Source: Gemmatimonadaceae bacterium
GTDB taxonomy: Bacteria > Gemmatimonadota > Gemmatimonadetes > Gemmatimonadales > Gemmatimonadaceae
Reading direction: 5' to 3'
Length of the DNA stretch: 35,892 bases
Assembly: GCA_014379205.1 (NCBI GenBank)
Contig: JACMME010000094.1
Span: forward strand, 1-35,892
A model generated the notes under the pieces. That model had not been told where the DNA came from. It saw nothing but the letters and a program-made list of their open reading frames with translations, and made no database searches. The translations under genes and the position numbers were made by a program. The first letter of the stretch is position 1. Each line of letters begins with the position of its first letter. Positions 3,141 to 16,258 of the stretch are shown one piece after another.

Positions 3141-3304
3141 GTGGCCTGCGGAACGCTGGAAAGGTCGGAGCGGCAGCTGCGCCCGCAATGCCGGTGCCTG
3201 CTGTGCGATGCGAGATTCCCGATTGATACTGAGGGATTGCCGGGAGCCGGGCGCCGGTCACTGCGCCTCGATTGAACGGAACTGTGAGAACGGCGATGCA
3301 CGCG

Positions 3305-3745: not shown

Positions 3746-3815
3746 TTAGTAGCTCATTCTACAAGTACGGCAACGTTCGTCCAGGAGGTTCCCAGATTCC
3801 AACCGCCACGAGTGT

Positions 3816-3871
3816 GGTGCCAGGTGCCCGGTGCGCGGTGCCCGGTCGTCACTGCGCGGTGTCCGGTTACC
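3816..3871 (+). repeat. Heptad repeat array A (8 units, GGTGYNC type)
   Basis: Eight consecutive 7-nt units lie in the gap between the HIT and YqeY genes. Units 1-4 and 7 read GGTG plus three variable bases (GGTGCCA, GGTGCCC, GGTGCGC and so on); units 5, 6 and 8 are degenerate (GGTCGTC, ACTGCGC, GGTTACC). A perfect 8-nt inverted repeat, TGCCCGGT at 3839-3846 and ACCGGGCA at 3869-3876, could form a hairpin in the YqeY leader transcript. The unit order resembles array B near 13.1 kb. No coding function is apparent. The rest of the 290-nt gap (3746-4035) holds only the candidate promoter at its HIT end and no recognisable small gene. Confidence 0.7.
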
Positions 3872-4004
3872 GGGCAGGAAGCAGCGCCGAGCCACGAGAA
3901 ATCCGCAATACTCCTTCGCACTCCGATGTTCCGCGATTGGCGCTGCAGGTTCGGTACGATGTTATTGGAATCGACCAACTAGCTCACTGTGAAGAAGCGA
4001 AGAA

Positions 4005-4034
4005 AACTTAGTAAGTGCTCAACGAGGGTGTCAA
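4005..4034 (-). promoter_or_regulatory. Candidate promoter for yqeY-mutS2-dnaG
   Basis: On the minus strand a perfect -35 hexamer TTGACA (4034-4029) is followed after 18 nt by TAAGTT (4010-4005), a weak -10. It begins directly after the HIT stop codon and precedes a leader of about 250 nt that contains heptad array A. The placement fits a separate promoter for the downstream YqeY-MutS2-DnaG run. The -10 match is only partial, so this remains a candidate. Confidence 0.4.
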
Positions 4035-4035
4035 C

Positions 4036-12135: not shown

Positions 12136-12183
12136 CGTCAAATTGCAAACCTCATATCGGGAAACCCGTATGCCGTGGCTCTT

Positions 12184-12260
12184 GGCAGATAGCCGATGGC
12201 AGATGGCTCGCTGACGGCTCATACTCGCGAGCAGCCATCCGCCATCAGCTATCTGCCATC
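12184..12260. repeat. Heptad repeat array C, inverted (11 units, long hairpin)
   Basis: Eleven 7-nt units fill the spacer between obg and the upstream CMD-like gene. The left side reads GGCAGAT, AGCCGAT, GGCAGAT and the right side carries the same unit inverted (AGCCATC, CGCCATC, AGCTATC, TGCCATC). Arms 12184-12208 and 12233-12257 pair over 25 positions with only two mismatches, around a 24-nt loop, so the element can form a very stable cruciform or RNA hairpin in the obg leader. No T-tract follows closely, so a simple intrinsic terminator is unlikely. It shares unit type with array D in the mla operon. Confidence 0.8.
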
Positions 12261-12266
12261 AGCCCC

Positions 12267-12911: not shown

Positions 12912-13075
12912 CGGACTACTGCTTCTCGCATCGTTTGAGCGCGGACAAATGGTCGAGTGAAAAGACACGGGAACGGATTAAAACTAGACTGTGAACCAGA
13001 AGAACGACTGGAGGGGCGTGCCCACCCAATACAGCGACGTTGATAACCGCGCCCCGCCCACCGGGGTTCTCAGCC

Positions 13076-13131
13076 GGGCCCCGAGCACCGCGCCGTACCA
13101 ACCGTGCACCGAACACCGAGCACCGAACACC
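13076..13131 (-). repeat. Heptad repeat array B (8 units, GGTGYNC type)
   Basis: Read on the minus strand, eight 7-nt units occur: GGTGTTC, GGTGCTC, GGTGTTC, GGTGCAC, then degenerate GGTTGGT and ACGGCGC, then GGTGCTC and GGGGCCC. Unit by unit, without gaps, it matches array A at 40 of 56 bases and keeps the same order of good and degenerate units. It lies in the 259-nt gap (12912-13170) between the CMD-like gene and the asparaginase; apart from GC-rich sequence I see no gene or clear promoter in the rest of that gap. Confidence 0.7.
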
Positions 13132-13170
13132 GAGACGTAACGCACCAAGCCGTAAGGATCCGGGCAATGT

Positions 13171-16162: not shown

Positions 16163-16188
16163 AGTCGAGCCTCACTTCGTATGAGGGC

Positions 16189-16258
16189 GGATGGCTGATA
16201 GCCGGTAGCAGATGGCTGATGGCTGGTGCTATCCGCTCTCTGCCGCATGCTATCCGCC
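16189..16258. repeat. Heptad repeat array D, inverted (10 units) in the mla operon
   Basis: The spacer between mlaF and mlaD holds five direct units (GGATGGC, TGATAGC, CGGTAGC, AGATGGC, TGATGGC) followed by degenerate units including ATCCGCT, CTCTGCC, GCATGCT and ATCCGCC, which are largely inverted versions. Outer arms GGCGGAT and ATCCGCC pair perfectly, and the inner part pairs loosely (19 of 31 positions by my alignment). Unit type is the same as array C. A hairpin here would sit in the mRNA between mlaF and mlaD and could influence relative expression or mRNA decay. Confidence 0.7.

Follow-up and report, generated by a model that had tools for sequence, protein, structure and literature searches.

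Ordered heptad arrays in a Gemmatimonadaceae genome are probably the left arms of a dispersed intergenic repeat

Heptad repeats described in other bacteria

The closest precedent for the arrays described here is the GGGAATC/GGGNATC heptads of Xanthomonas, which are mostly intergenic, are rare between divergent genes and form 70-75 convergent inverted pairs in each genome (Rehm et al. 2015, PMC4692102). The repeats of our genome are likewise intergenic heptad arrays that face inward at a short distance, and GGGAATC is shared as one of their dialects. In contrast to the Xanthomonas repeats, they come in at least six dialects, one of these has an ordered 28-nt super-unit with a leader, and the two arms can be of mixed dialect. 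Moreover, most of the dialects lack G3 tracts: GGTGYYC has no GGG, and the GGGAATC dialect is the only one that does.

Heptanucleotide repeats known as STRR were reportedly described by Mazel and colleagues in 1990 in the cyanobacterium Calothrix. To our knowledge, neither the STRR nor the heptameric SSRs have a fixed unit order or a plan of left and right arms. As presented in the papers that cite them, the STRR of Calothrix (Mazel et al. 1990, cited in PMC4692102) and the long heptameric SSRs (Mrazek et al. 2007, cited in PMC4692102 and PMC4679880) resemble our arrays in being tandem 7-nt arrays, dispersed and mainly intergenic, with several heptads per genome. The comparison with cyanobacterial STRR made in an earlier sequence-only reading of this DNA was judged apt, although the GGTG family departs from such simple repetition by its fixed unit order. 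The repeats of Nostoc include few inverted pairs (PMC4692102). The TAACTGA heptads of Beggiatoaceae, described together with a summary of the proposal of polymerase slippage with a period of seven (MacGregor 2015, PMC4679880), are also abundant intergenic direct repeats of patchy distribution, but they consist of a single heptad placed mostly just 5' of start codons, while here no such placement was seen and the pairs are inverted. MITEs and REP/BIME elements are similarly short, dispersed, intergenic and non-coding and have inverted ends; unlike them, the repeats analyzed here have heptad arrays as arms rather than a fixed palindrome, and no Y1/RAYT gene was found. Set against the open-access literature, the 28-nt super-unit with its leader, the mixed arms and the many dialects are new, and an earlier description in a subscription paper is possible.

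Arrays A and B and their copies in the genome

The window, i.e., the whole stretch of 35,892 nucleotides that was analyzed (contig JACMME010000094.1), contains two look-alike arrays, A and B, both located where the sequence-only reading had placed them (Table 1). Array A reads GGTGCCA GGTGCCC GGTGCGC GGTGCCC GGTCGTC ACTGCGC GGTGTCC GGTTACC and array B reads GGTGTTC GGTGCTC GGTGTTC GGTGCAC GGTTGGT ACGGCGC GGTGCTC GGGGCCC; their ungapped identity is exactly 40 of 56 bases, as had been counted. The search for a right arm of A failed at 3 mismatches, the best match having 4 mismatches to TTCGCAGTTCGCAG. The candidate right arm of B is comparable to TCGTTCTTCGCAGTTCGCAGTC in locus L041; it was missed by the automatic 4-mismatch search, and the match needs an indel. 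With Rfam 15 at the gathering score, nothing was found over A or B, and the window gave only two tRNAs.

Table 1. Positions in the window of arrays A and B and of the parts assigned to them
Feature	Positions	Strand	Sequence or units	Basis
Array A, left-arm heptads	3816..3871	+	4 GGTG units, GGTCGTC, ACTGCGC, GGTG unit, degenerate unit	
Leader of array A	3804..3815	+	CGCCACGAGTGT (consensus CGCAACGAGTGC)	42-copy ungapped alignment, upstream conservation
Divergent heptad pair of A	3844..3857	+	family consensus GGTTGGY ACWGCGC	
Possible decayed right arm of A, weak candidate	3900..3924	+	AATCCGCAATACTCCTTCGCACTCC	by eye, usual spacing
Array B, left-arm heptads	13076..13131	-	architecture as in A	
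Leader position of array B, diverged	13132..13143	-	GCGTTACGTCTC	42-copy alignment
Divergent heptad pair of B	13090..13103	-	GGTTGGT ACGGCGC	
Probable decayed right arm of B	12985..13011	-	TCGTTCTTCTGGTTCACAGTCTAG	by-eye comparison with intact copies

Copies were then counted by pattern searches in the window's own genome (4.11 Mb in 339 contigs). The consensus GGTGNNCGGTGNNCGGTNNNNACNGCGCGGTGNNCGG, with up to 3 mismatches, gave 90 matches, and the reversed control gave 0. When a 28-nt weight matrix was applied to the fetched regions, 116 units in 67 arrays were detected, and again none in the reversed sequence. At least 67 dispersed copies are present, A and B included, and 61 of the 67 are intergenic. 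The core consists of four GGTGYYC heptads, GGTTGGY, ACWGCGC and GGTGYYC, usually with the leader CGCAACGAGTGC ahead, and its 28-nt consensus is GGTGCTC GGTGCCC GGTTGGY ACWGCGC. Counted up to the divergent pair, GGTG units numbered four in 42 of the 65 scored copies, three in 14, two in 6 and five in 3; after the pair there are usually two GGTG-type units, and about one-quarter to one-third of the copies have a second 28-nt round with the divergent pair repeated. At one locus (L050, minus strand), a long C-rich tract lies directly 3' of the GGTG array and is followed by an inverted GGTG-like stretch; this tract could be spacer DNA or reflect a fault in the assembly.

To compare the order of units, 42 sequences hand-picked as four-unit copies were aligned over 70 columns with zero gaps and a mean column identity of 85%. 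The variable letters depended on the position of the unit (chi2 p 2.6e-7). When the units of each array were shuffled, the observed similarity between copies was never reached in 500 trials. This ungapped alignment, along with the position-specific units, shows that the copies are diverged from one master and that the unit order is inherited from it. The copies compared were about 75-90% alike and near-identical copies were absent, a level of identity which suggests that they are old. Chance or low-complexity drift was ruled out by the reversed-pattern controls and the fixed order, and a coding repeat was rejected because a period of 28 is not divisible by three and because most arrays are intergenic. 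The sequence-only reading had supposed copying with the order of units kept, and the position-specific consensus of the 42 aligned copies bears this out; the counts against the reversed pattern are not those of unphased GGTG-rich noise, and the order of units is retained in the other copies. Its defined structure of 56 nt and eight units has to be given up, since a 12-nt leader precedes the heptads, the GGTG count varies and a second round occurs in some copies.

Inward-facing arms and heptad dialects

An inward-facing (right-type) array was found within 180 nt downstream of 32 of the 67 GGTG arrays, and a left-type array in 3. Upstream, there were 2 right-type arrays and 1 left-type array, and random places gave 8 and 6 of 400. 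Among the 32 right arms, 21 were TTCGCAG and 8 were inverted GGTG; about half of the GGTG arrays had no recognisable right arm. The GGTG array behaves like the left half of an element with two arms, so that the 56-nt block regarded earlier as a whole unit is one arm of a larger repeat.

The same plan of inverted pairs was seen in at least six dialects, i.e., GGGAATC, GGATTGC, GAACTGC, GGTGYYC, GGAACCA and GATGGCT. In an unbiased census of 428 kb, a sample chosen regardless of arrays, neighbor arrays up to 250 bp apart formed 17 convergent pairs (14 within a single dialect), 3 same-direction pairs and no divergent pair. All of the 29 neighbor pairs classified in our own and related genomes were inverted rather than direct, and in 27 of them the first arm was the richer in purines; the stretches from relatives were mostly selected because arrays were present. 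The fixed leader, the divergent pair and the position-specific units are established for the GGTG family alone. The GGGAATC dialect gave 100 exact 21-mer matches in the genome. The window holds other arrays too: an inverted pair of GATGGC-type arrays in the gap ahead of the gene for Obg (12166-12264, fold z -6.8), another GATGGC-type array between two minus-strand genes (16182-16225) and degenerate GGGAATC/GCCGGGA-type heptads in the MutS2-YqeY gap (3202-3257). Elsewhere (L171:1486-1760, the same as L099:3091-3365), nested palindromic dialects surround about 115 nt of unique sequence, with GGATTGC then GAACTGC units forming the left side and TTCGCAG then AATCCGC units the right side.

Paired arms could be REP/BIME-like hairpins at gene 3' ends, kept by selection because they terminate transcription or protect mRNA. 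Four inverted GGTG pairs folded strongly (z -6 to -17). By approximate gene calls from a simple custom model, arrays occupied 9 of 29 convergent gaps vs 3 of 36 divergent gaps (p 0.026) and lay nearer to stops than to starts; when limited to gaps of 150-600 bp, the contrast was not significant (p 0.09). However, A and B singly folded no better than shuffles (z about 0), A lies between co-directional genes of the opposite strand, and promoter avoidance alone would yield the same bias of context. Terminal inverted repeats, a MITE trait, are present in the inverted GGTG pairs, whereas the arms of the GGTG...TTCGCAG hybrids differ and a hairpin along the full arm is impossible for them. Arm similarity within loci beyond that expected from dialect was significant only for GATGGCT (p 0.0135) among five dialects tested, which hints weakly at co-variation of the arms. 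This weak co-variation, along with hybrids that cannot pair fully, indicates that the hairpin is not the whole explanation, and as an account of the arrays we regard it as rather unlikely. Single arrays were also rejected as structured RNA, given the same folding scores and an alignment without compensatory pairs.

Slippage could have produced the arrays as simple repeats like STRR or long SSRs, by local 7-nt expansion at each site, the likeness of A and B then being convergent or due to sequence bias. Heptamers dominate the long simple repeats of many bacteria, for which a 7-nt polymerase contact has been proposed (summarized in PMC4679880). Array lengths here vary, and period 7 stood far above other periods: autocorrelation of intergenic DNA in the 428 kb peaked at lags 7, 21 and 14, with 68 period-7 arrays, and no other period from 5 to 11 had more than 10; under a stricter cut, there were 35 vs at most 3 for periods 5-6 and 8-13. 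In coding DNA, lag 7 was not raised and the lag-21 value reflected the codon period only. Nevertheless, slippage alone cannot give a shared leader, a fixed divergent pair and position-specific units at unrelated intergenic sites, and it leaves the inward-facing pairs unexplained. The shared leader and the fixed order refute it as the sole cause, and we consider this explanation improbable, even if slippage is probably behind the changes in unit number. Least credible, and in our judgment very improbable, are G-quadruplex regulatory repeats as proposed for the Xanthomonas GGGAATC. That heptad, which forms G4 in vitro (PMC4692102), is one dialect here, but GGTGYYC, GATGGCT, GAACTGC and GGATTGC units share the architecture without a GGG run, and with most dialects devoid of G3 tracts, G4 cannot be the general principle.

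Distribution and possible origin

The core was absent from 58 related genomes except for one weak match. A search of GTDB genomes, which may omit near relatives, gave a single core match (L101), in a Kiritimatiellaeota MAG; it was rejected as a true copy, as it looks like chance and lies inside a long repetitive, apparently coding stretch. The core was not found in viral contigs and B had no match in plasmids, and a viral or plasmid origin was rejected on these results. A model of the 70-nt element gave 68.9-74.2 bits for the listed top matches in its own genome; across 394 genomes of the class, nothing else scored above 30.6 bits. Within the genomes searched, the core seems to be confined to the source species. 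Other dialects recur patchily: GATGGCN was found in 16 of 151 genomes of the order, CGGTGAA in two genomes (G154 and G142), and GGGAATC was abundant only here and in one genome of the same family (G004). The latter had 31 exact GGGAATC 21-mer matches, and such matches were almost lacking in the remaining 149 genomes of the order.

At the site of A, none of 18 orthologous HIT-YqeY gaps of relatives contained a heptad array (best lag-7 score of 14/28 vs 22 here). In several relatives this gap spans 40-52 nt, and in others rpsU lies inside it. The array at this site is lineage-specific; as the relatives belong to other genera, their gaps do not amount to a clean empty site. The gene rpsU, for ribosomal protein S21, is missing from this gap in the window (3746-4035) and was located on another contig (C256:5714-5869), while it lies between HIT and YqeY in the relatives L223, L224, L226, L231, L233, L238 and L240.

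Our reading is that A and B are probably copies, now diverged, of a non-coding repeat dispersed between genes and left arms of a two-armed element; that the element is dispersed and copied is very likely. It would consist of the leader, about four GGTGYYC units, GGTTGGY, ACWGCGC and GGTGYYC, followed by a non-conserved short spacer and an inward-facing right arm. New copies would be placed in intergenic DNA by a copying process, most simply in trans by analogy with MITE/REP-type elements, and the heptad number would drift via 7-nt slippage. Mobilization in trans is, on its own, a tentative proposition. The element had earlier been called mobile or copied: copying stands, and mobility can be put only as a possibility, given how far the copies compared have diverged and that no Y1 gene was found. 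The REP-type Y1 transposase (PF01797) had 0 matches in this 91.8% complete genome, and 5 of 14 control genomes were positive, which makes a REP/RAYT route unlikely; a RAYT-driven REP was rejected on this basis. The boundaries of the element are too diverged to define a target duplication. The places where elements are tolerated, and possibly put to use, would mostly be close to the 3' ends of genes; there, two arms of one dialect would fold into a long hairpin in the transcript from either side, although usefulness as a 3'-end hairpin seems doubtful to us. A broader proposal, and one with little chance of being right, is a class of mobile, non-coding elements not described before, with two arms read in 7-base steps, in which a dialect would be an arm lineage recognized by a trans-acting factor, left and right arms from different dialects could be joined (GGTG...TTCGCAG), and the ordered 28-nt core would mark one dominant left arm of the species.

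It has been noted for years that bacterial intergenic tandem repeats favor period seven, with no established mechanism. One two-armed plan over several dialects, together with a copied unit order, makes slippage debris, mobile elements and 3'-end hairpins distinguishable, and the repeat could serve as a high-copy marker of the species.
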